From positions 1-38,422 of the forward strand of contig CASFQX010000110.1 in NCBI GenBank assembly GCA_949296375.1: DNA of 38,422 nt, read 5' to 3'. Under the pieces are notes generated by a model that worked only from the letters and a program-made list of their open reading frames with translations, was not told the DNA's origin and searched no databases. Below, piece after piece: positions 4,774 through 38,422 of the stretch. Position 1 is the first letter of the stretch. Every line of letters begins with the position of its first letter. Made by a program: the position numbers and the translations under genes. The DNA comes from an uncultured Olsenella sp. (GTDB lineage Bacteria > Actinomycetota > Coriobacteriia > Coriobacteriales > Atopobiaceae).

Positions 4774-5963
4774 GTGCCGAGAAAAGCCATGTGCTTCTCG
4801 CCGTCTGTGGCGGAATCGCAGCGTACAAGGCATGCGAGGTGCTGCGGGGCCTCCAGAAGGCGGGCTGCGAGGTCCGCGTGACCATGACTGGGGACGCGGA
4901 GCGTTTCGTGGGCGCAACGACTTTCGAGGCGCTCTCCGGTGCTCCCGTAGCCACGTCGCTCTACGACTACCCTGGATCCGCAATCCCGCACATCGAACTT
5001 GCCGAGTGGGCGGACGCCGCCGTGGTGGTGCCCGCCACCGCCAACGTCGTGGCCAAGATGGCCTGCGGCATTGCCGACGACTGCCTCACGACAACGCTTC
5101 TGGCGTGCGCGTGTCCCGTGCTCGTGGCGCCGGGGATGAACGTGCACATGTGGCAGAGCCTCGCCACGCAGGCCAACGTTGCCGCGCTGCGCGAGCGGGG
5201 CGTGAGCTTTGTGGGGCCTGACAGCGGTCGCCTTGCCTGCGGGGACGTGGGCGAGGGCAAGCTCGCGGGGGTGGACGAGATCGTGTTTGCCGCGCTGGCG
5301 CTTTTGGGGCCGCGCGACCTTGATGGCCTGAGCGTGCTCGTGAACGCCGGCCCCACGCACGAGGCCATCGATCCCGTACGCTACATCGCCAACCGGTCCA
5401 CGGGCAAGATGGGCTATGCCATTGCCGAGGCCGCGGCGCGACGTGGGGCCGAGGTGACGCTCGTCTCCGGACCCACCGCGCTGCCCACGCCTGCCGGCGT
5501 GAGGCGTGTGGACGTTGAGAGCGCCGCCCAGATGCACGATGCGATGCTCGCGGAGTTTGATGACGCCGACGTTGCCATCTGCAGCGCCGCCGTTGCCGAC
5601 TACACCCCCGCGGCGCCCGCGGACCACAAGCTCAAGAAGTCGCGCGAGCACCTGGACGCGATCGCGCTCACTGAGACTGCTGACATCCTGGCTGACCTCT
5701 GCGCGAAAAAGGGCCCGCGCGTCGTCGTCGGCTTTGCCGCCGAGACGGACGATCTTCTCGCCCACGCGCAGGATAAGCTCGAACACAAGGGCGCCGACCT
5801 CATCGTGGCCAACGACGTGAGCCGCCCCGAGTCAACCTTTGGAGCCGACACCAACCGCGTGGCGTTCGTGACCGCTGGCGGCGTGGAGCAGCTTGAGACC
5901 ATGCCGCTGCACGGTGTGGCTGACGCGATTCTTGAAGCCGTACTGAGGATGGTCGCGCGATGA
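4770..5963 (+). CDS. coaBC: Bifunctional phosphopantothenoylcysteine decarboxylase/synthetase CoaBC
   Basis: CoaBC makes 4'-phosphopantetheine in coenzyme A synthesis: the N-terminal CoaC half is an FMN-dependent decarboxylase and the C-terminal CoaB half ligates cysteine to 4'-phosphopantothenate. The CoaC half shows CGGIAAYKA, the PHI histidine, PATAN, APGMN and the flexible flap SGRLACGDVGEG with its active cysteine. The CoaB half begins near VNAGPTHEAIDPVRYIAN and includes STGKMGYA, the DHKLKKS lysine motif and NDVS. I start it at GTG 4770, giving 397 aa, because this overlaps the previous stop as GTGA and follows GAGGAGG at about 4756-4762. The upstream ATG at 4722 would add 16 unrelated residues. 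Confidence 0.95.
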   Translation: MSAEKSHVLLAVCGGIAAYKACEVLRGLQKAGCEVRVTMTGDAERFVGATTFEALSGAPVATSLYDYPGSAIPHIELAEWADAAVVVPATANVVAKMACGIADDCLTTTLLACACPVLVAPGMNVHMWQSLATQANVAALRERGVSFVGPDSGRLACGDVGEGKLAGVDEIVFAALALLGPRDLDGLSVLVNAGPTHEAIDPVRYIANRSTGKMGYAIAEAAARRGAEVTLVSGPTALPTPAGVRRVDVESAAQMHDAMLAEFDDADVAICSAAVADYTPAAPADHKLKKSREHLDAIALTETADILADLCAKKGPRVVVGFAAETDDLLAHAQDKLEHKGADLIVANDVSRPESTFGADTNRVAFVTAGGVEQLETMPLHGVADAILEAVLRMVAR

Positions 5964-6814
5964 GCGGGCTGCTTATTGGCTGCCACCTTTCCACCGCGAG
6001 TGGCTATGCGGCCATGGCGTCAGACGCCGTCTCCATCGATGCCACCACGTTCGCGTTCTTCACGCGCAACCCGCGCGGCGGCAACGCGCGCGAGCTGGAC
6101 CAGAAGGACCTCGCCGCGTTTCTCGACACGCTCGAGAAGCACGAGATCGGCCCGCTGGTGGCGCACGCGCCCTACACGTACAACCTCTGCTCCGCCAAAC
6201 CGGAGACCGTGGAGTTTGCCCGGCGCGCGATGCGCGAGGACCTGGAGCGCCTGGAACGCATGCCCGGCCATCTCTACAACTTCCATCCTGGTGCGCACGT
6301 CAAACAGGGTGTAGACGAGGGGATCAGACTCATCCGCGAGGGCCTGAACGAGGTCCTGGAACCCGGGCAGAATACGACGGTGCTGCTGGAGACCATGGCC
6401 GGCAAGGGCACCGAGGTCGGGCGAACCTTCGAAGAGCTCGCGCGCATCATCGACGGAGTGGACCACGACGAGCTTCTCGGCGTGTGTCTGGACACTTGCC
6501 ACGTGGCGGACGCAGGCTATGACATCATGGGCGACCTCGACGGCGTGCTCGATGAGTTCGACCGTGTGATCGGGCTTGACCGCCTGCGCGCCCTGCACCT
6601 CAACGACTCCAAGAACCCGCTCGGCTCTCACAAGGACCGTCACGAGAAGATCGGTGCGGGCACGCTCGGCCTCGGGACCTTCCGCGCCGTGGTCACCAAC
6701 CCGCGCCTCTCGGGCCTGCCCATGGTCCTCGAGACCCCGCAGACCGGCCTCGACGGCTGGGCGACCGAGATCACGCTGCTGAGATCGCTCGCCGCAGAGG
6801 GGGCTTCTTCGTAA
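5960..6814 (+). CDS. nfo: Endonuclease IV (AP endonuclease Nfo)
   Basis: Nfo cuts the DNA backbone 5' of abasic sites in base excision repair, using three zinc ions in a TIM barrel. The expected metal-binding landmarks are present: HAPY, NFHPGAH, LLETMAGKGTEVG, CLDTCHVADAGYD, HLNDSKNPLGSHKDRH (the most characteristic signature) and the final LETP. Length 284 aa is normal. It overlaps coaBC by four bases (ATGA) and shares one base with the ABC-F gene (TAATG), so the three are probably translated as a coupled set. No SOS box is visible in front, which is expected for an internal operon gene. Confidence 0.96.
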   Translation: MSGLLIGCHLSTASGYAAMASDAVSIDATTFAFFTRNPRGGNARELDQKDLAAFLDTLEKHEIGPLVAHAPYTYNLCSAKPETVEFARRAMREDLERLERMPGHLYNFHPGAHVKQGVDEGIRLIREGLNEVLEPGQNTTVLLETMAGKGTEVGRTFEELARIIDGVDHDELLGVCLDTCHVADAGYDIMGDLDGVLDEFDRVIGLDRLRALHLNDSKNPLGSHKDRHEKIGAGTLGLGTFRAVVTNPRLSGLPMVLETPQTGLDGWATEITLLRSLAAEGASS

Positions 6815-29354: not shown

Positions 29355-30133
29355 TGGCCTCACCCGTGTCTTCCGGCGATGACTCATCGAGGCCGCTCGA
29401 GCCCAACGGGAGGCTCGGCGTCTTTGACCTCGTGCGCGGGTTCTCCGTCGTCTCCATGGTCATTTTCCACCTCTGCTACGACCTGAAGTTCATAGCCGGC
29501 TATGACCTCGAGTGGTTTGAGCCTCCCCTTCAGGACGTGTGGAGGTGCAGCATCTCCTGGGTCTTCCTGTTCATCGCCGGGTGCATGTGCACGCTCTCGA
29601 GAAACAACCTGAGACGGGCCCTCGAATACGGTTGCGTGGCCCTTGCCATCTGGGCCGTGACGACCGTCGCCGCAGTCGACACACCGATTTCGTTTGGAAT
29701 CATCTACTGCATGTCTGCGTGCACGCTCGTCGCATGGGCTCTCCAGCGCATCAGGGCGCTTCCGAGAGGTTACGTTGCCGCCGCGCTCCTCTTCGTTGCC
29801 TTTATTTCGCTTCTTGGCCTCGCAGACGGGACAATTGGCGTCGGGCCTTGGACGTTGGGCCTCCCACAGGAGCTGACCATGGTCGAAGGACTCGCGTGGC
29901 TCGGCATTCCATCGGCATCCTTCTCATCCGGAGACTACTATCCCCTTCTCCCCTACCTGCTCATCTATCTCTGCGGAGCTGCAATGGGGACGCGTTGGAA
30001 GGAGCGAGGCTATCCCAGCTGGGCCTATGATGCAAACCTTGCGCCCTTGAACTTCGTGGGAAGACACGCGCTGCTCGTCTACGTCATCCACCAGCCCGTC
30101 ATCCTCGCTGTATGCGCACTGCTGGGCTCCTGA
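29354..30133 (+). CDS. DUF1624 / heparan-alpha-glucosaminide N-acetyltransferase-like membrane protein
   Basis: A 259-aa protein with about seven hydrophobic segments. Near the N-terminus are GVFDLVRGFSVVSMVIFHLC and YDLKFI, with the histidine expected for the DUF1624/HGSNAT superfamily of membrane acyl transferases, and near the C-terminus NFVGRHALLVYVIHQPVIL. The acceptor in bacteria is unknown, perhaps a cell-wall or surface sugar. Its ATG overlaps the lexA stop by one base, so it is probably made from the SOS-controlled lexA transcript. It ends 6 bases before the end of hflX, with no clear terminator between. Confidence 0.8.
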   Translation: MASPVSSGDDSSRPLEPNGRLGVFDLVRGFSVVSMVIFHLCYDLKFIAGYDLEWFEPPLQDVWRCSISWVFLFIAGCMCTLSRNNLRRALEYGCVALAIWAVTTVAAVDTPISFGIIYCMSACTLVAWALQRIRALPRGYVAAALLFVAFISLLGLADGTIGVGPWTLGLPQELTMVEGLAWLGIPSASFSSGDYYPLLPYLLIYLCGAAMGTRWKERGYPSWAYDANLAPLNFVGRHALLVYVIHQPVILAVCALLGS

Positions 30134-30139
30134 GAGAAT

Positions 30140-31450
30140 CTACTCTGACTTCCCGGGCTCATCCTCAGTCACATACGGCTCGAGTGTGGAGGCCATTCGG
30201 GAATCGGCCCTAACGGTGGCGAGAAGCCCCTCCTGCACGTAGCGCTCGCGAAGCACCTGGCATCGCTCGTGAACCATCTTCATGAGCAGGCCCTTCTCGT
30301 ATGGCACAAGCACCGTGAGCGAGACGCTGCCGTCCGAGGCCTCCTTGGCGATGCGATAGAGCAAGCCGCGAACACCCTGTCCGGTGAGAGCGGAGACCGG
30401 CTGTGCGTCTGGGTGCGCCGCAAGAAGTCCACGGAGCTCAGCCTCGTCCACAAGGTCGACCTTGTTCAGCACCTCGACGCAGCGAATCTCTCCCGCGTCT
30501 ATCTCCTCGAGGACGGAGCGAACCGCCCCGATTTCGAGCTCGCGATGAGGGTCGGAGGCGTCGACGACGAGCAGCACGAGGTCGGCGGCACGTACCTCCG
30601 CGAGCGTGGACTTGAAGGACTCGACGAGCATCGTGGGAAGCTTCTGGATGAATCCGACGGTGTCGGTGATCGTGATCTTGCGCCCCTCCTCGAGGTCGAG
30701 AGCGCGTGTCGTGGGATCGAGCGTGGCAAAGAGCTCGTCTTTGGCATAGACGTCCGAACCGGTGAGCTGGTTGAGCAGCGTGGACTTGCCGGCATTGGTA
30801 TAGCCGACGAGTGCCACCCGATAGACGCCTGAGTCCCAGCGGGCCTTGCTCTGCACGCCCCTGCGCTTCTCGAGGCGCTCGAGCTCGCGGCGAAGGGTCG
30901 AGATGCGCGAGCGAACGAGGCGTCGATCCACCTCGAGCTGACTCTCGCCCTGGCCGAAGCGGCTCCCGATCCCGCCGCGCGTCTGCTCCCCGACAAGGTG
31001 GCTCCACATGCCGCGAAGACGAGGGAGCACGTACTGGAGTTGGGCAAGCTGGACCTGAAGACGGCCTTCGTGAGTCTTCGCGTGAACGCCGAAGATGTCG
31101 AGGATGAGTGCCGTGCGGTCGATGATCTTGACGGGCTCTCCCACGAGCTTCTCGAGGTTTGCCTGCTGGGAGGGCGTGAGCTCCTCGTCAAAGATCACGA
31201 CGTCGGCATCGAGTGAGCGGACCATGGAGACGAGCTCCTCGACCTTGCCCTTTCCGATGAACGTCTTGGGGACGGGCGCGTCGAGGCGCTGGGTCATCGT
31301 GAGAACGACCTCGGCGCCATCCGTCTCGGCGAGGCGGGCGAGCTCGGCGAGAGACTCCTCGCAGCTCCACTCCGACCTTCCGAGGTCAACGCCCACGAGG
31401 ATGGCCCTCTCGGGAACCGGTGCAGTCGACAGCGGCTTAAATCGTCCCAT
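30140..31450 (-). CDS. hflX: Ribosome-splitting GTPase HflX
   Basis: HflX binds stalled or idle ribosomes and splits them with GTP, mainly under stress. The 436-aa protein has the N-terminal domain (SQQANLEKLVG, ILDIFGVHAKTHEGRLQV), GIGSRFGQGESQLEVDRR, the G domain with GYTNAGKSTLLN, DTVGFIQKLP and NKVD, and a C-terminal domain. I choose the ATG at 31450, which lies inside the end of miaA (14-base overlap) with a G-rich ribosome site; a TTG at 31480 is less likely. The miaA-hflX neighbourhood is common in bacteria. Confidence 0.95.
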   Translation of the reverse strand: MGRFKPLSTAPVPERAILVGVDLGRSEWSCEESLAELARLAETDGAEVVLTMTQRLDAPVPKTFIGKGKVEELVSMVRSLDADVVIFDEELTPSQQANLEKLVGEPVKIIDRTALILDIFGVHAKTHEGRLQVQLAQLQYVLPRLRGMWSHLVGEQTRGGIGSRFGQGESQLEVDRRLVRSRISTLRRELERLEKRRGVQSKARWDSGVYRVALVGYTNAGKSTLLNQLTGSDVYAKDELFATLDPTTRALDLEEGRKITITDTVGFIQKLPTMLVESFKSTLAEVRAADLVLLVVDASDPHRELEIGAVRSVLEEIDAGEIRCVEVLNKVDLVDEAELRGLLAAHPDAQPVSALTGQGVRGLLYRIAKEASDGSVSLTVLVPYEKGLLMKMVHERCQVLRERYVQEGLLATVRADSRMASTLEPYVTEDEPGKSE

Positions 31451-32387
31451 GCGTCCCGCCCCCCAGTGAAAGCGAGCCAACGATCTGGTCCCGCGCCTCC
31501 TCCAAGCTTGTCTCGTCGAGGTCGATCCATCTCACCCTGCCGTCATGTCTGAACCAGGAGAGCTGACGCTTTGCGTATCGTCTGGACCTCCTCTTTATGA
31601 GCTCGACGGCGTCCTCGAGGTCGCATCGTCCCGCTAGCGCCTCGAGAAGCTCCTTGTACCCGATGGCCTGCCCAGCGGTGGAGTCCGCAGTGAGACCTCG
31701 CCTCGCGAGGTCCCTGACCTCGTCGAGCAGCCCGCTCTGCATCATCTTGTCCACACGAGCGTCGATGCGCTCATACAGGCGCTCGCGTCCCATCGTGAGC
31801 CCCCAGATCAATGCGTCATAGTGTGCGGCCCGTCGGTGGAGCCCCTCGTGGTGCGCCGCATAGGATGCCCCCTCGTCGAGCATCTCGAGGGCACGCACGA
31901 CCCTGCGCACGTTGTTGGGATGAATGATTTCCGCACTCCGAGGGTCGCGATCGGCGAGAAGGGCGTGGAGGCCCTCGGCACCCAACTCGGAGGCGAGCTT
32001 CTCATAGCCAGACCGGCGCTCGTCGCCGCGCTCGCCAGAGGGGAATTCCATCTCGTCGATGACGGCATTGAGATAGAGGCCCGTGCCGCCGCAGAGAACG
32101 GGGACGCGCCCCGAGGCGAGAACCTCGTCGACGCACCGACGCGCGTCATCGCGGAAGAGTCTCACGGAGTAGTCCTCGCACGGGTCGACAACGTCAACCA
32201 TGAGAAGCGGCACGCGACGATCGGGGGCGGGCGTCTTGGCGGTCCCGATGTCCATCCCGCGATATACCTGCATGGCATCGACCGAGATGACCGGGCTTCC
32301 AAGCTCAAGGGCAACGAGGTCGGCAAGGGCGCTCTTGCCCGAGGCCGTGGGCCCCACGATGCAGATCACCTTGGAGTCGCCACTCAC
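31437..32387 (-). CDS. miaA: tRNA dimethylallyltransferase MiaA
   Basis: MiaA adds a dimethylallyl group to A37 of tRNAs that read UNN codons. The 316-aa protein has P-loop GPTASGKSALADLVA at the start, the DAMQVYRGMDIGTAKT motif, CGGTGLYLNA and the tRNA-binding YAKRQLSWFRHD near residue 270. The GTG start at 32387 overlaps the miaB stop as GTGA. MiaB acts on the product of MiaA (ms2i6A), so the pair forms one modification pathway and is likely cotranslated. Confidence 0.96.
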   Translation of the reverse strand: MSGDSKVICIVGPTASGKSALADLVALELGSPVISVDAMQVYRGMDIGTAKTPAPDRRVPLLMVDVVDPCEDYSVRLFRDDARRCVDEVLASGRVPVLCGGTGLYLNAVIDEMEFPSGERGDERRSGYEKLASELGAEGLHALLADRDPRSAEIIHPNNVRRVVRALEMLDEGASYAAHHEGLHRRAAHYDALIWGLTMGRERLYERIDARVDKMMQSGLLDEVRDLARRGLTADSTAGQAIGYKELLEALAGRCDLEDAVELIKRRSRRYAKRQLSWFRHDGRVRWIDLDETSLEEARDQIVGSLSLGGGTHGTI

Positions 32388-33751
32388 CTGGGCTCGCCCT
32401 CAATGGAGCCACGAAGATACCAGGTGCGCGCCTCCTCGACTCGGACGTCGCAGATCGTGCCGACGAGGCTCTCGGGGTCGCGACCCTCCGGCACGGTGAA
32501 GTGGACCGTGCGGTTCTTCTCGCTGTGTCCTACCATGATGTTGGCGTCGCGCTTGGAAGCGCCCTCCACGAGAACGCTCACCAGCTGGCCGAGGTCAGCC
32601 TGGTTGGCCCCGTGCGCCTGCTCGGCAACGAGGTCGGCAAGACGGTCGAAGCGCTCCTGGATAACCTCACGTGGAGTGTCATCGGGCATCTTGGCAGCCG
32701 GGGTGCCCGGCCTCCTGGAGTAGATGAAGGTGAACGCGGAGGAGAATCCTGCCTCGCGCACGAGGGAGAGCGTCTCCTCGAAGTCCTCCTCGGTCTCCCC
32801 TGGGAAGCCCACGATGATGTCGGTCGAGAGGGCAAGCTCGGGAATGGCGGCGCGCAGACGACCGACGAGCTCGAGGTACTCCTCGCGCGTGTACTTGCGA
32901 TTCATGGCCTTGAGCACGCGAGAGGATCCGCTCTGCACGGCGAGGTGGAGATGCGGCATGACGGCGGGAACCTCGGCCATGGCACGGATTACCTCGTCAT
33001 CGAGATCCTTGGGGTTGGAGGAGGTGAAGCGGATACGCTCAATGCCCGTCTCGCCCACCCTGCGCAGCAGCTCGGCAAAGCGCGGCTCGCCGTAGATGTT
33101 GCGACCGTAGGAGTTGACGTTCTGACCTAGGAGCGTGACCTCACGAACCCCTTCGGCGACAAGGGCCTCCACCTCGGAGACAATGCTCTCCATGGTGCGG
33201 CTCTTCTCACGTCCACGCACATGCGGCACGATGCAGTAGGTGCAGAAGTTGTCGCAGCCCGTCATGATGGGCACCCAGGCGTGAAAGCGCTGGGCCCGGT
33301 GGCTAGGGAGGTCGGTAGAGAAGGACCTCCCCTCCTCGACGGTGTCCACCTCGGCGTGAGAGCCGTCACCGGAGAAGGCGTCCGCGAGAAGCGTTGGGAG
33401 GCTCTCGATCGCACTCGTGCCAAAAACAACGTCAGCACAGGCCACGTGCTCGCGAATCTTCTCGCCGTCGCGCTGGGCGATGCAACCGCCGATGGCGACG
33501 ACACGGCGTCCCGAAGGGGGCGTGGGAGCGCTCACCATGGCAGATGCCTGCCCGTAAAGGTGCTGGTCAGCCTTCTCGCGAACGCAGCACGTCATAAAGA
33601 CTACGATGTCTGCCTGATCCGGGTCGTCAACGCAGATGCAACCGCACGAGTCGAGCACGCCGGCAACGCGCTCCGAGTCGTGAAGGTTCATCTGGCAGCC
33701 AAAGGTCTTAACGAAGTAGGTCTTCCCCACCAAAACTCTGGGCTGCTCCAT
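32384..33751 (-). CDS. miaB: tRNA-2-methylthio-N6-dimethylallyladenosine synthase MiaB
   Basis: A radical-SAM methylthiotransferase that adds the 2-methylthio group to i6A37 of tRNA. Of 455 aa, the N-terminal MTTase domain has KTFGCQMNLHDSE, the second cluster cysteine in MTCCVREKA and the third in GGCIAQRDG. The radical-SAM domain has the CxxxCxxC motif in GCDNFCTYCIVP. A TRAM domain ends it. The start overlaps the spoVS stop by one base (TGATG). Together with miaA it forms one modification pathway. Confidence 0.97.
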   Translation of the reverse strand: MEQPRVLVGKTYFVKTFGCQMNLHDSERVAGVLDSCGCICVDDPDQADIVVFMTCCVREKADQHLYGQASAMVSAPTPPSGRRVVAIGGCIAQRDGEKIREHVACADVVFGTSAIESLPTLLADAFSGDGSHAEVDTVEEGRSFSTDLPSHRAQRFHAWVPIMTGCDNFCTYCIVPHVRGREKSRTMESIVSEVEALVAEGVREVTLLGQNVNSYGRNIYGEPRFAELLRRVGETGIERIRFTSSNPKDLDDEVIRAMAEVPAVMPHLHLAVQSGSSRVLKAMNRKYTREEYLELVGRLRAAIPELALSTDIIVGFPGETEEDFEETLSLVREAGFSSAFTFIYSRRPGTPAAKMPDDTPREVIQERFDRLADLVAEQAHGANQADLGQLVSVLVEGASKRDANIMVGHSEKNRTVHFTVPEGRDPESLVGTICDVRVEEARTWYLRGSIEGEPR

Positions 33752-34059
33752 CAGGCATCAACCGCCTCGGAGCCGGCGACGGACGAGGGGGCGACGATGC
33801 GATGGACGTAGACCGCGATGCGGATGGCGGTGCGGCTCTCCCCGCCGATCTCAACGTCGGAGAACGTTGGGGCACACGAGATGTCGACGCCGGTGGGAAT
33901 GAGGAAGCCGCGAGCTATGGCAACCGCCTTGATAGCCTGGTTGACGGCGCCGGCACCAACGCACTGGATGTTGACGGGGGTGCCGTCCTTGACGAGACCC
34001 GCGATGGCCCCGGCGACGGACGCCGGCGAAGACTTGCTTGATACCTTCAGATAGTCCAT
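33751..34059 (-). CDS. spoVS: SpoVS-like protein (Alba superfamily)
   Basis: A 102-aa protein matching stage V sporulation protein S: MDYLKVSSKSSPASVAGAIAG, CVGAGAVNQAIKAVAIARGF and FSDVEIGGESRTAIRIAVY. SpoVS belongs to the Alba fold, whose members bind nucleic acids, and occurs in many non-sporulating bacteria. In Bacillus it affects sporulation and septation and lies near rny. Here it sits between the GHKL ATPase and miaB, keeping that neighbourhood. The last about 12 residues are not part of the core. The ATG has AGGGAG upstream; its transcription start is probably in the 92-base gap behind it. Confidence 0.9.
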   Translation of the reverse strand: MDYLKVSSKSSPASVAGAIAGLVKDGTPVNIQCVGAGAVNQAIKAVAIARGFLIPTGVDISCAPTFSDVEIGGESRTAIRIAVYVHRIVAPSSVAGSEAVDA

Positions 34060-34151
34060 GTAGCTCCCTGTTGTGGCTTCACTCCGATGATGCTTCGAAT
34101 TCTGGTTTGATAGGACAATAGTAGTAGTTAGCTCCGAGGTTGAGAAGCGAG
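34060..34151 (-). promoter_or_regulatory. Gap before spoVS with a possible promoter
   Basis: On the minus strand TTCTCA and TACTAT are 17 bases apart (about 34104-34146), each matching four of six consensus bases. The gap separates spoVS-miaB-miaA-hflX from the upstream GHKL gene and is the only large one in this stretch. Tentative. Confidence 0.35.
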
Positions 34152-35240
34152 CTAGTCCGACGGGGCAAGCTCGAAGGTGACGGTCACGCGCCGTCCGGAG
34201 GCCCTCACCCTGGGCTCACCGGAGAGCGTGAGGTAATACCTCTCAGCGAGCAGCGCAAAATCCCGCTCCATCAGACGCGAGAACTCCTCTAGGTCTGACG
34301 GGGCAACCTTGAGGCCCCTGCGGTCCCGCATCAGGTCGACCTCATGAGACGGGGACTCGGCCCTTCCTCGACCATGCGCCAACCTGGAGAGAACGCTCTC
34401 TTGAGCCGGGATCTCGCCGGACACGATCCTGTGCGCGGTGCGCTCAGACATCTCGAGTCCAACTGAGACGGCCTGCTCACGAAGCTCCCGCGCATCGGCG
34501 GCAGCACGAAGCCGCGCAAGAACGGGAAGGCTCTCGAGAGAATCGAGCAAAAGGAGGTCGGAGCCCTTGACGCTCAGTGAGGCACGGGCACGCGCCGTGG
34601 CAATGATCTCTGCAGGCGACCCAAAGTAGACCTCGCACGTCCCACGCTCCTCCAGGGCAAACTCGCAACAGGTCCGTATGAGGTTATGAGGGCCCCGTAC
34701 GCAGCTCTCCTCACCGTCCTCGTTGACGCCGATCTGCGGCCAGCTGGACTGATCGGCACGCTCGGGCAGGGTCGTGGCGTCACTCACCACGCGAATCGCC
34801 GTACCCTTTCCAGGGGCGGAAGAGACAATGCCAGCGGAGAGGGCGTTCTCGCAAATCGAGAAGAGCGCCATGCCGCGACCGTGAATGCCCCACCGATCCA
34901 TATGGACCGAGTCGAGCTTCGAGGTGACGCGGGCCTCAAGGACGCGCTCGTGCATGTCTTCGGGGATGCCGGTGCCGTCATCGAGAACCACCAGGGTCCT
35001 CAGGTCCCCCTCTCGAGCGGTGGCGACATAGATGTGTCGGGCGCCGGCGTCGCGTGAGTTCCTGAGAAGCTCGATGAGCGCATCCTCGATGCAGCGAACG
35101 TCGTGCGCCGCCTGGCGGCGCTCGGCCTCGGAGATGCGAAGCCTGACAAAGCCCTCGCCGAGGCTCTCCTCAACGCGAAGGGCTTTGTCTCCCCCCATGG
35201 AGGAGACAAAGCCCACAAGGTCTAAGGAACTGGGGGCCAT
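34152..35240 (-). CDS. GHKL-family ATPase of unknown role, MutL-like N-terminal domain
   Basis: I do not know this protein's function. The first about 170 residues are a GHKL ATPase domain: N box IEDALIELLRNSRDAGA (Glu57, Asn61, Asp64), G1 box DDGTGIP (87-93) and G2 box GIHGRGMALFSI (118-129), with a TSK just before (106-108) as in MutL. The remaining about 190 residues do not resemble the MutL C-terminal dimerisation or nuclease domain, nor a sensor kinase output, and have no membrane segment. It is not MutL or Hsp90. It lies 3 bases after rny and so is probably cotranscribed with it; the ribosome site is weak. An RNA or DNA surveillance role is only a guess. Confidence 0.75.
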   Translation of the reverse strand: MAPSSLDLVGFVSSMGGDKALRVEESLGEGFVRLRISEAERRQAAHDVRCIEDALIELLRNSRDAGARHIYVATAREGDLRTLVVLDDGTGIPEDMHERVLEARVTSKLDSVHMDRWGIHGRGMALFSICENALSAGIVSSAPGKGTAIRVVSDATTLPERADQSSWPQIGVNEDGEESCVRGPHNLIRTCCEFALEERGTCEVYFGSPAEIIATARARASLSVKGSDLLLLDSLESLPVLARLRAAADARELREQAVSVGLEMSERTAHRIVSGEIPAQESVLSRLAHGRGRAESPSHEVDLMRDRRGLKVAPSDLEEFSRLMERDFALLAERYYLTLSGEPRVRASGRRVTVTFELAPSD

Positions 35241-35243
35241 GGA

Positions 35244-36806
35244 CTACTTGGCAACGTCGACGGCGCGAGACTCGCGGATGACGACGACGCGAACCTGACC
35301 GGGATACTCCATCTCATCCTCGATCTGCTTGGCGATGTCATGGGCGAGGACGGTTGCCTGGGCGTCGGAGATCTTCTCGGGCTCGACCATGACGTGAAGT
35401 TCGCGACCAGCCTGCATCGCGTAGGTGCGCTCGACGCCCTCGTGTGCGTTGGAGATCTCCTCAAGCTTCTCGAGACGCTTGATGTAGTTCTCCGCAGACT
35501 CGCGACGCGCTCCGGGTCGGGCGGCAGAGATGGCATCGGCAGCCTGGACCAGGACGTCAAGGACGGTGTCCGGGTCAACGTCGGCGTGGTGTGCCTCGAT
35601 GGCATGGACGATCTCGGGACGCTCGCCGTAGCGGCGGGCGAGGTCGGCGCCGATAACGGCGTGCGGGCCCTCGACCTCATGGTCGATAGCCTTGCCGAGG
35701 TCGTGGAGAAGACCGGCACGCTTGGCGGGAGCCTCGTCGAGACCAAGCTCGGAGGCCATGATGCCGCAGAGAGCAGAGACCTGGACGGAGTGCGAGAGCA
35801 CGTTCTGACCAAAGGAGGTGCGGTAGCGCAGGGCACCCAGGGTCTTCACTAGCTCAGGGTGGAGGTCATGGATACCGGCATCGAAAGCGGCCTGCTCGCC
35901 AGCCTCACGGACGCGCTCGGCAACGAGAGCCTCCGCCTTCTTGTAAAGCTCCTCGATGCGAGCGGGATGGATGCGGCCGTCAGCGATGAGGTTCTCGAGG
36001 GCGACGCGGGCGGTCTCGCGGCGCACGGGGTCAAAGCTCGAGAGAACGACCGTCTCGGGCGTGTCATCGATGACGAGAGAGACGCCGGAGACCTGCTCGA
36101 AGGTACGGATGTTACGACCCTCGCGACCGATGATGCGGCCCTTGAGGTCATCCGAGGGGATGTGAACCGAGGTGACCGTGATCTCTCCGGCCTGGTCGGC
36201 GGCGCAGCGCTGGATGGCCGTGGAGACGATTTCACGAGCCATCTTGTCAGCCTGAGCACGGACGCTCTGCTCGGACTCTCGGAGAATCTGAGCCTCCTCG
36301 CGCACGGAGTCGGCGCGGACGCGGGCGAGAAGCTCGTCGTGGGCCTCATCGGAGGAAAGCCCGGCGATGCGCTCGAGCTCGGCGCCCTGGCGCTCGATCA
36401 TCTCATCGAGGTCGCACTTCCTGCGGTCCAGCTGGCCCTGAAGGCTCGAGAGCTGGTGCTCGCGACGATCGAGGGCATCGTTGCGGTGATCGAGGGACTC
36501 CTCGCGCTGCATGATGCGATTCTCGAGGTTCTGGAGCTCTCCCTTGCGCTTCTTCTCCTCTGCCTCGGAGTTCTGCTTGAGCTGAAGAATCTGCTCCTTG
36601 GCCTCGAGGACGGCCTCCTTCTTGGCGTTCTCGGCCTGACGCGCGGCCTCCTGCGTGATGCGATCGGCCTCGCTGCGAGCAGCCGCGAGCTGCGCCTCGG
36701 CGTCACGAAGCTTGGAGCCGCTCTTGCCGGCGAGGAAGAAGTACACGAGGGCTGCGCCCACGACGAGGCACACCGCCCCCACCACGATGGTTATGGGATC
36801 TGTCAT
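35244..36806 (-). CDS. rny: Ribonuclease Y
   Basis: RNase Y is the membrane-anchored endoribonuclease that starts mRNA decay in many Gram-positive bacteria. The 520-aa protein has one N-terminal membrane segment (about 5-26), a long charged coiled coil (30-190), a KH domain with GRIIGREGRNIRTFE, and an HD domain with LLHDLGKAIDHE as the metal site. GAGGAG lies a few bases before the ATG. The leader is long (about 180 bases from the likely promoter) and structured, with a hairpin and T tract at 36938-36969. The GHKL ATPase gene follows after 3 bases. Confidence 0.96.
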   Translation of the reverse strand: MTDPITIVVGAVCLVVGAALVYFFLAGKSGSKLRDAEAQLAAARSEADRITQEAARQAENAKKEAVLEAKEQILQLKQNSEAEEKKRKGELQNLENRIMQREESLDHRNDALDRREHQLSSLQGQLDRRKCDLDEMIERQGAELERIAGLSSDEAHDELLARVRADSVREEAQILRESEQSVRAQADKMAREIVSTAIQRCAADQAGEITVTSVHIPSDDLKGRIIGREGRNIRTFEQVSGVSLVIDDTPETVVLSSFDPVRRETARVALENLIADGRIHPARIEELYKKAEALVAERVREAGEQAAFDAGIHDLHPELVKTLGALRYRTSFGQNVLSHSVQVSALCGIMASELGLDEAPAKRAGLLHDLGKAIDHEVEGPHAVIGADLARRYGERPEIVHAIEAHHADVDPDTVLDVLVQAADAISAARPGARRESAENYIKRLEKLEEISNAHEGVERTYAMQAGRELHVMVEPEKISDAQATVLAHDIAKQIEDEMEYPGQVRVVVIRESRAVDVAK

Positions 36807-36937
36807 GTCTGCTCCTCAAGTTTCAAGTCTGCGTGGGTTCAGGAGACCGTGCGCAAACGCGCGACGGAACCCGCCGTGGAGGTGCAGTCATGACGCCTAT
36901 CCCGCATGTCGCGGGAGTGGCAGCTAACGTGACGTAC

Positions 36938-36969
36938 AGAAAAACAAAATCATCAGCTGGCGTACCAGC
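36938..36969 (-). terminator. Terminator-like hairpin in the rny leader
   Basis: On the minus strand GCTGG-TACG-CCAGC (five GC-rich pairs, UACG loop) is followed by TGATGATTTTGTTTTTCT. The T tract begins six bases after the stem, so it is weaker than a classical terminator. It lies about 130 bases before rny and about 30 after the likely promoter, so it may attenuate rny or end a short RNA. Confidence 0.45.
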
Positions 36970-36996
36970 GAAAGAATGCGCTCCACGAGCAGACCT

Positions 36997-37026
36997 ATCC
37001 TAGCCCCGATGTAAGCGTTCTGTCAA
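36997..37026 (-). promoter_or_regulatory. Likely promoter of rny
   Basis: On the minus strand TTGACA (37026-37021), a perfect -35, lies 18 bases before TAGGAT (37002-36997). It is just after the recX stop and would give a leader of about 180 bases in front of rny. Confidence 0.65.
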
Positions 37027-37056
37027 ATGAGCCGCAGGAAAAACGGCACATGACAT

Positions 37057-37737
37057 CTACAGCAGCTGGTCGGAACCACCGTCGAGAACCTCGCGCGCCA
37101 CCGAGGTGGCAAGACCGAGGGAGTACCCTCTGGAGCAGAGAAACCTAACCATCTTCTGGTAGTCGTTCTTACCCGTGAGGTGGCGGCGCGAGGCGAGGGA
37201 AAGCGCCCGCTCGAGCTCTTCGTCCGCGGTGAGAAACTCGTCCGGCCAACCAGGAACGTCCGCGGCATTGACGCCCCGGCGCGCTAGCTCGCGCTCGATC
37301 CTGACCCTCCCCCATCCGGAAAGGACCTTCGAACGAGCAAACGATGCCCCGAAGCGGGCGTCGTCGACGATTCCGACGTCACGCGCCCGATCGACGATGT
37401 CCTGGGCCACGGTGCGTGAGTACCCGTCATCAACGAGCCGCTCGAAGAGCTCCCGGGAGGAGTAGTCCCTGCGATTGACGAGAGCCTCCATGCGCTCATG
37501 GGCACAGACCCTCGAGAGCTCCCCGAGCCTATGGAGAAGCTCAGCGCGCGAGGAGGGAGCACCGGGCTCCTCAGAGAGCCCCTGAAGCCTCTTGCCAACG
37601 GCAAGGGCGACGCGAAGCTCCTCATCCCCGCCGTCTTCGGACGATACCCTGAGCAACGCCCTGCCACGACGATCGCCCATGCGGCGAGCGCCGCGATCCG
37701 GCAGCTCGACCGACCACGAGAAGAGACGCCCGGTCAC
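37057..37737 (-). CDS. recX: RecX regulatory protein
   Basis: RecX binds RecA filaments and limits their growth. The 226-aa protein has three-helix repeats typical of the family: [39 protein letters not shown] with ELARRGV, and a last repeat with [20 protein letters not shown]. The first about 75 residues before the repeats are less conserved. The GTG start overlaps the recA stop as GTGA, the usual recA-recX arrangement. rny follows after a 250-base leader. Confidence 0.92.
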
Positions 37738-38422
37738 GACTCAGCGTCCTCCGCAACGTCCGCATCCACGGGCTCCCCGACGCGCTCGTCGCCAAGCTCG
37801 AGCCCGGAGGCAACACGAACCTTGTGGTCGATCTCATCGAGAAGCTCCGGGTGCGAGGAGAGGAACTCCTTCGCCGCTTCACGACCCTGGCCAAGGCGCT
37901 CCGTCTCGTACGTGAACCAGGCGCCGGACTTGTTGACGATGTCGAGGGCGACCGCAGTGTCGAGAATCGAGCCCTCCTTGGAGATACCACGCCCGTACAT
38001 GATGTCGAACTCAGCCTGCTTGAAGGGCGGTGCGACCTTGTTCTTGACGACCTTGACGCGCACGCGGTTGCCGATCACGTCGTTATTGGACTTGATGGTG
38101 TCGATCTTGCGGATGTCCATGCGAACGGACGAGAAGAACTTGAGCGCCCTTCCGCCGGGCGTCGTCTCGGGGTTGCCGAACATGACGCCGATCTTCTCGC
38201 GCAGCTGGTTGATGAAGATACAGGTGGTGTTTGACTTGGAGAGCGATCCGGCGAGCTTGCGAAGCGCCTGGCTCATGAGGCGGGCTTGGAGACCAACCGT
38301 GGAGTCTCCGATCTCTCCCTCGATCTCGGCGCGGGGCGTGAGGGCGGCAACGGAGTCAACGACGACGACGTCTATGGCCCCGGAGCGAACGAGCATGTCG
38401 CAGATCTCAAGGGCCTGCTCGC
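37734..38422 (-). CDS. recA: Recombinase RecA (C-terminal part, cut by window edge)
   Basis: RecA forms filaments on single-stranded DNA, drives strand exchange and triggers LexA cleavage. About 229 residues are inside the window; the start lies beyond 38422. The frame is open across the edge and reads [18 protein letters not shown] there. Visible parts are [19 protein letters not shown] (Walker B), [33 protein letters not shown] (with the L2 loop) and [14 protein letters not shown], then a final acidic tail (Asp, Glu and Ala). No intein is seen in this part. The next gene, recX, overlaps its stop by four bases. Confidence 0.97.

Follow-up and report, generated by a model that had tools for sequence, protein, structure and literature searches.

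GHKL ATPases power DNA repair, topology, chaperoning and signaling. Among them, the hydrolyzing GHL ATPases MutL, Hsp90 and gyrase share an N-box that we take to follow the pattern E-x3-N-x2-D-A. Prokaryotic MORC and paraMORC proteins are also GHKL ATPases; as described by Iyer et al. (2008, PMC2292703), they have S5 domains, some carry unassigned C-terminal extensions, and their genes are mobile, patchily distributed and found in restriction-modification neighborhoods. On the RNA side, RNase Y of Bacillus subtilis takes its specificity from the partners RicT, RicA and RicF, according to two reports (PMC10470536, PMC13230545). In the literature on RNase Y and GHKL/HATPase proteins, we found no GHKL ATPase tied to an RNA endonuclease.

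The window, that is, the whole stretch of 38,422 nucleotides analyzed here, comes from an uncultured Olsenella sp. and contains the gene of an orphan GHKL ATPase behind rny. The closest named records to this ATPase belong to the Atopobiaceae (82% identity) and to Olsenella/Thermophilibacter. The genes and signals considered are the following:

31437 to 32387, minus strand: putative miaA (open reading frame; syntenic in relatives).
32384 to 33751, minus strand: miaB, 3' of spoVS (TIGR01574).
33751 to 34059, minus strand: spoVS, directly downstream of the ATPase gene with a gap of 92 nt (Pfam PF04232).
34152 to 35240, minus strand: ATPase gene, GHKL, 362 amino acids, ATG start (open reading frame, Pfam, orthologues).
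35244 to 36806, minus strand: rny, encoding RNase Y, 520 amino acids, directly upstream of the ATPase gene (TIGR03319).
36997 to 37026, minus strand: sigma-70-like promoter match upstream of rny, weak (0.8 expected by chance).
37057 to 37737, minus strand: putative recX (open reading frame; syntenic in relatives).

The rny product is identified as RNase Y by TIGR03319 (699.5 bits, cut-off 454), spoVS by the Pfam SpoVS match (E = 2.7e-35), and miaB by TIGR01574 (470.7 bits, cut-off 355.3). The labels miaA, hflX, recX and recA are those that we presume, from the sequences, for other genes of this neighborhood. An initial annotation had placed the ATPase gene 3 bases behind rny and just before spoVS and miaB. 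This is exactly what we find: 3 nt separate the rny stop from the ATPase ATG (TAG-TCC-ATG), and spoVS follows 92 nt further on. When the region 31400-37800 was scanned for sigma-70-like promoters, the match at 36997-37026 was the only one detected, and none lay between rny and the ATPase gene. The two genes are presumably co-transcribed, and the ATPase gene is probably translated behind RNase Y from the same mRNA as rny. The 250-nt leader between recX and rny (window 36807-37056) contains the promoter-like match and two short terminator-like stems; comparison of 30000-38422 with Rfam gave zero matches.

The GHKL ATPase domain is complete and MutL-like, and spans residues ~30-157 of the 362-residue protein. 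Two Pfam families are matched above their cut-offs, HATPase_c_3 (E = 3.3e-10, residues 52-134) and HATPase_c (E = 1.8e-8, residues 51-152), and both are matched in 40/40 order-wide homologues. Alignment locates the motifs of the active site as follows:

35046 to 35072, minus strand: N-box, residues 57-65 (ELLRNSRDA), with catalytic-type Glu57, Asn61 and Asp64.
34962 to 34982, minus strand: G1 box, residues 87-93 (DDGTGIP).
34917 to 34925, minus strand: T-S-K lid motif, residues 106-108, before G2; it lines up with the TSK of MutL.
34872 to 34883, minus strand: G2 box, residues 120-123 (HGRG).
34800 to 34811, minus strand: G3 box, residues 144-147 (GKGT).

Bergerat-type N, G1, G2 and G3 boxes are thus present, and the protein is a member of the GHKL superfamily. 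Conservation was examined in 135 distinct homologues, 131 of them outside the divergent family f40, which is probably Rubrobacteria, and 4 from f40. The N-box has the pattern E57xxxN61xxD64A65 and the G1 box the pattern D87xG89xG91. Outside f40, residues E57, N61, D64, D87, G91, T106, H120, G121, R122, G123 and G146 are invariant (131/131), K108 is kept in 130/131 homologues and A65 in 129/131. The complete GHKL boxes and the MutL-like TSK motif reported by the initial annotation are real; T106-S107-K108 precedes H120-G-R-G123. The f40 copies have Arg at K108 and Pro at G146 (4/4), and one of them has Gln at E57; given these substitutions, ATP handling may differ in f40. These copies (L209-L212) are divergent and encode 307-322 amino acids, and f40 genomes hold MutL (usually two matches) and are devoid of spoVS.

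The ATPase fold is nearest to the ATPases of MutL and topoisomerases (VIA, Z 13.5, rmsd 4.5, 159 aligned, against the MutL structure 9n2k_B). The matches in a viral fold library, to histidine kinases and to topoisomerases, reached E 4.8e-4 at best and add nothing. The N-box aligns with that of MutL in a profile alignment, and the E-x3-N-x2-DAGA, DDGxG and TSK elements of the N-terminal ATPase of MutL/MLH1/PMS2, which has the same fold, line up with their counterparts. The G2 regions of both proteins coincide in position, and read HGRGMAL in the orphan ATPase and FRGEAL in MutL. The term “MutL-like” used in the initial annotation holds for the ATPase domain but not for the C-terminal half: against a MutL profile of 18 sequences, narrow because it was drawn from f40 alone, hhalign gave a probability of 98.2% for the full alignment (ATPase part) and 0.1% for the C-terminal half alone, which is unrelated by profile to the N-terminal 330 residues of MutL. 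The C-terminal dimerization/endonuclease domain of MutL is missing from the orphan ATPase, which ends at 362 residues, and neither Pfam nor NCBIfam matched such a domain in the C-terminal half of 40 members.

Three segments are discerned in the C-terminal half, the first two from models and conservation and the third from models:

34575 to 34769, minus strand: residues 158-222, conserved linker (E160, D163-Q164, P168) and GPxN (183-186), predicted beta-beta-alpha-beta-alpha.
34371 to 34523, minus strand: residues 240-290, predicted helix-turn-helix (HTH)-like helical element with S265, R267 and R271.
34173 to 34301, minus strand: residues 314-356, predicted long helix and beta-hairpin.

AlphaFold2 models built with 52 related sequences had mean pLDDT values of 80.9 and 78.7 and pTM values of 0.71 and 0.51; the ATP lid and the linker at residues 291-307 were the low-confidence parts. 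In the model with mean pLDDT 80.9, beta-beta-alpha-beta-alpha is predicted at residues 169-219. A remote or truncated S5 transducer might be hidden in this predicted segment; an S5-type domain after the ATPase domain found no match in Pfam at E up to 1 nor in Foldseek at E <= 0.001. The helical element follows the pattern A..LGL..S.RT..RI..G. Because R267 and R271 are retained in 135/135 homologues and S265 in 134/135, this element is the best-surviving part of the C-terminal half in the divergent f40 copies. A resemblance of residues 240-290 to a helix-turn-helix is put forward as a suggestion, because the sole HTH family matched was HTH_31, with E 0.021, below the cut-off and in 2/40 members. 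Beyond the ATPase domain, the whole architecture is common to homologues from outside the class, as judged by comparing 6 alignment rows with 20 such homologues.

The initial annotation had also stated that the C-terminal half matches no known output domain. A match to a known family was looked for and did not occur: residues 158-362 gave no usable match in Pfam (E up to 1; 40 homologues at E up to 0.1), in NCBIfam (40 members) or in PHROGs, a profile of the C-terminal half found nothing better than E 0.36 among PDB sequences, and Foldseek returned no PDB structure at E <= 0.001. The weak Pfam matches that appeared (HTH_31, Nif11, bPH_4 in 1/40, and others) were set aside as chance or uninformative. 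Nif11 was seen in 4/40 members (best E 9.4e-5); in one member, residues 239-263 fall on positions 21-45 of 48, below the Pfam cut-off. No weight was given to VIA matches with phage tail proteins (best Z 4.5, rmsd 3.9, 54 aligned) or to weak Fur rows (Z about 2).

When its distribution was surveyed in genomes of its own phylum, the ATPase gene was found in 116/121 genomes of the family, 244/247 of the order and 194/197 of the class, three sets that overlap; a 117th match in the family (G064, E 1.2e-4) reflects weak GHKL similarity and was left out of the count. At E <= 1e-10, 97/246 sampled genomes of the phylum carry it, class members included. The gene is a single-copy core gene of its class. 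Unlike MORC and paraMORC genes, it is widely conserved and lies in a housekeeping block, and no restriction-modification neighborhood was seen in the loci read. Codon comparison with three relatives gave dN/dS values of 0.13-0.18 over the full gene and of 0.12-0.20 when the halves were taken separately, which indicates purifying selection on each half. The ATPase evolves faster than rny, with 82% versus 99% identity to the nearest relative.

The initial annotation had assigned the gene to a rny-spoVS neighborhood. The rny part of this assignment stands. Among the 97 carriers in the phylum sample, 96 possess rny; the one remaining carrier, G593, where no rny was detected, has an incomplete assembly (79%) and a partial ATPase gene. 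Leaving aside 8/97 carriers with no listed rny place, the ATPase gene lies directly downstream of rny, on the same contig and strand, in 89/89 carriers, the opposite of the absent link in related genomes that the initial annotation had contemplated. In these 89 carriers the distance between profile hits has a median of 33 nt and a maximum of 547. A Fisher test accompanied the linkage count (p 2e-17); it ignores phylogeny and is not relied on. The spoVS part is weaker, as spoVS is absent from 28/97 carriers, and 10 genomes have spoVS without the ATPase gene. In loci from outside the class, rny is followed by the ATPase gene in 20/20 cases read, and spoVS stands beside it in 14/20. The genetic link of the ATPase to rny is thus shown across lineages, and is stronger and wider than the initial annotation could know.

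Spacing was also measured from the rny stop to the ATPase start, sought from the end of the rny alignment, in 81 loci that comprised the window (L001) and named relatives, many nearly identical Collinsella among them. The distance was 1-20 nt in 80/81 loci, with a median of 5. In the outlier, L048 (Atopobium deltae), there is no ATG, GTG or TTG near the expected start (around 5887-6043); the ATPase frame continues upstream without interruption as far as the rny stop, and the start codon is ambiguous. On the other side of the gene, the distance to spoVS is about 0.1 kb in most loci and about 0.8-0.9 kb in two (L056, 1886-2815; L125, 2563-3401).

The converse relationship was examined in genomes without one of the two genes. 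Only one of 69 rny-less phylum genomes has the ATPase gene, and it is the incomplete G593. Nine genomes of the family, order or class that do not carry the ATPase gene were tested: the assemblies of 7 contain no rny, in 1 a contig end truncates rny, and 1 represents a true loss. The latter, G185, belongs to the order and is complete (1.45 Mb); it lost the ATPase gene only, and kept rny, spoVS, miaB and miaA. At this locus (L216, 6423-6633), 211 nt now separate rny from spoVS.

The ATPase is not required by RNase Y: 81/177 rny-bearing phylum genomes do without the gene, and in the 20 of these 81 loci that were read no trace of it was detected behind rny (20/20). In the same 20 loci, miaB follows rny within 3.5 kb in 15 and spoVS does so in 4. 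Conserved order is therefore weaker evidence than it seems, as much of the block is syntenic in genomes that do not have the ATPase gene; both this order and the loss in G185 mean that adjacency could partly be inherited. Attachment to rny in the absence of spoVS, and near-absence from rny-less genomes, weigh against inherited order.

The surroundings of the locus may have a further RNA side. In 7/12 loci examined outside the class, spoVS and miaB flank a PHP-family gene, and in three loci without the ATPase gene the end of rny shares 11-17 nt with a PHP gene:

Locus L219, 3490 to 4329: PHP gene overlapping the rny end, ATPase-less lineage.
Locus L224, 2642 to 3478: PHP gene overlapping the rny end, ATPase-less lineage.
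Locus L237, 2420 to 3256: PHP gene overlapping the rny end, ATPase-less lineage.

Seven PHP copies were scanned (4 of the 7 between spoVS and miaB, 2 of the 3 overlapping rny, and 1 from a further ATPase-less locus), and 7/7 were nearest to the models of 3',5'-nucleoside bisphosphate phosphatase and RNase Rnm, below cut-offs. Possibly, the PHP gene that overlaps rny is another rny-coupled RNA gene. RicA and RicF belong to the YlbF family, to which the orphan ATPase, unlike them, has no sequence match. This family was found in 3/246 phylum genomes and in 0/97 carriers. Its absence leaves room for another RNase Y accessory, and shows none; nearly all genomes that have rny and no ATPase gene lack YlbF as well, so its absence in carriers is not specific.

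The reading that we favor, with a probability of roughly 0.4, is that the ATPase may serve RNase Y, or the RNA that this enzyme cuts, as an ATP-gated accessory or regulator. It draws on the linkage to rny, the tight spacing, the persistence of the linkage where spoVS is gone and the absence of rny from the assemblies of most close relatives that lack the ATPase gene, and also on the invariant boxes, purifying selection, the RNA context provided by PHP genes and the absence of Ric/YlbF. It is weakened by the 81 rny genomes without the ATPase gene, the loss in G185, the rny-miaB order where the gene is missing, its faster evolution relative to rny and the lack of specificity of the YlbF absence. 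The initial annotation had proposed that a fixed partnership with RNase Y would suggest a new ATP-driven factor in RNA decay or nucleoid biology; its observation is confirmed, and the interpretation as a whole is partly supported.

Judging from the motifs, catalysis is best read as GHL-type, like that of MutL, Hsp90 and gyrase, and not as that of a histidine kinase. In a tentative scheme, ATP binding would order the lid (TSK...HGRG) and close an N-terminal dimer, and hydrolysis driven by Glu57 would reopen it. The C-terminal half, with its predicted alpha/beta segment, HTH-like element and helix-hairpin tail, would contact nucleic acid and/or RNase Y, and the ATP state would control loading, targeting or release. 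We infer dimerization and hydrolysis, the binding of nucleic acid, a contact with RNase Y and the outcome, namely which RNAs are concerned and whether the effect is activation or restraint. The RicT/RicA/RicF (Y-) complex may be an analogue in role, as an accessory that steers RNase Y. A more specific version, in which a MutL-type ATP clamp would bind RNA and RNase Y through its C-terminal half and select by ATP turnover the transcripts to be cut, and so would take on, in a large branch of the phylum, the role of the Ric/Y-complex in Bacillus, is doubtful.

The strongest rival, unlikely yet still to be taken seriously, is a DNA-side ATPase, either a MutL/MORC-like clamp or an HTH transcription or nucleoid factor, for which adjacency to rny would be inherited order; its partner would be the recA-recX portion of the block, or it would regulate the block itself. 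The syntenic arrangement recA-recX-rny-ATPase-spoVS-miaB-miaA-hflX, much of it kept where the ATPase gene is missing, is compatible with this idea, as are the closeness of the ATPase domain to MutL and topoisomerases in VIA and the predicted HTH-like element, whose invariant arginines fit nucleic-acid binding. SpoVS, in turn, is a protein of the Alba superfamily of DNA/RNA-binding proteins, according to PMC11621453. However, the gene touches rny and not recA in every locus read, and its tightest spacing is with rny; it is retained by genomes without spoVS, and the incomplete assembly is the only one of the 69 rny-less genomes to have it.

Clean loss in G185, together with a C-terminal half whose fold matches no known one, could also be accommodated by a stable, nearly dispensable protein that its place in the operon has preserved and whose function has nothing to do with RNA or DNA, for instance a chaperone-like GHKL protein. 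Retention in 194/197 class genomes and the invariance of the catalytic residues make this quite improbable. Less probable still is a GHKL protein kinase, or a switch of the anti-sigma kind, whose target would be a partner, for example SpoVS or RNase Y: the orphan ATPase shares with histidine kinases the HATPase_c superfamily match (40/40), and their ATPase domains are among the fold matches, but a Pfam search extended to E = 1 matched no DHp/HisKA domain, H-box or response regulator. HATPase_c_2, which we take to be the anti-sigma kinase type, was weak in 1/40 homologues (E 0.092 at best), and the N-box is presumably of the hydrolytic GHL type, with its E, N and D invariant in 131/131 homologues outside f40. 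A displaced or degenerate MutL that replaces missing mismatch repair was rejected as the main reading and is very improbable indeed: MutL above the cut-off is missing from the genome itself and from 225/246 phylum genomes, and homology in the ATPase half is strong, but 21/21 MutL-bearing phylum genomes also carry the ATPase gene, TIGR00585 (MutL), the best NCBIfam match, reaches 41 bits against a cut-off of 180, the C-terminal half is unrelated to MutL by profile, and neither mutS nor mutL lies beside the gene in the window.

Two other proposals were discarded. One was a role in defense, for which PADLOC gave only a MTase_II match with E 0.029; the other was viral origin, as a viral contig scan with 21 pattern stretches found zero relatives.

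The orphan ATPase belongs to a GHKL family for which none of the four libraries scanned has an entry and which is not described in the open-licence literature found on RNase Y, SpoVS, GHKL proteins and Coriobacteriia. This ATPase is conserved throughout a class, and it combines an intact active site with an output half to which the searches assigned no domain. Returning to the favored reading of an RNase Y accessory, should the link with RNase Y be functional, these bacteria would degrade mRNA with an ATP-gated step that is missing from RNase Y models based on Bacillus.
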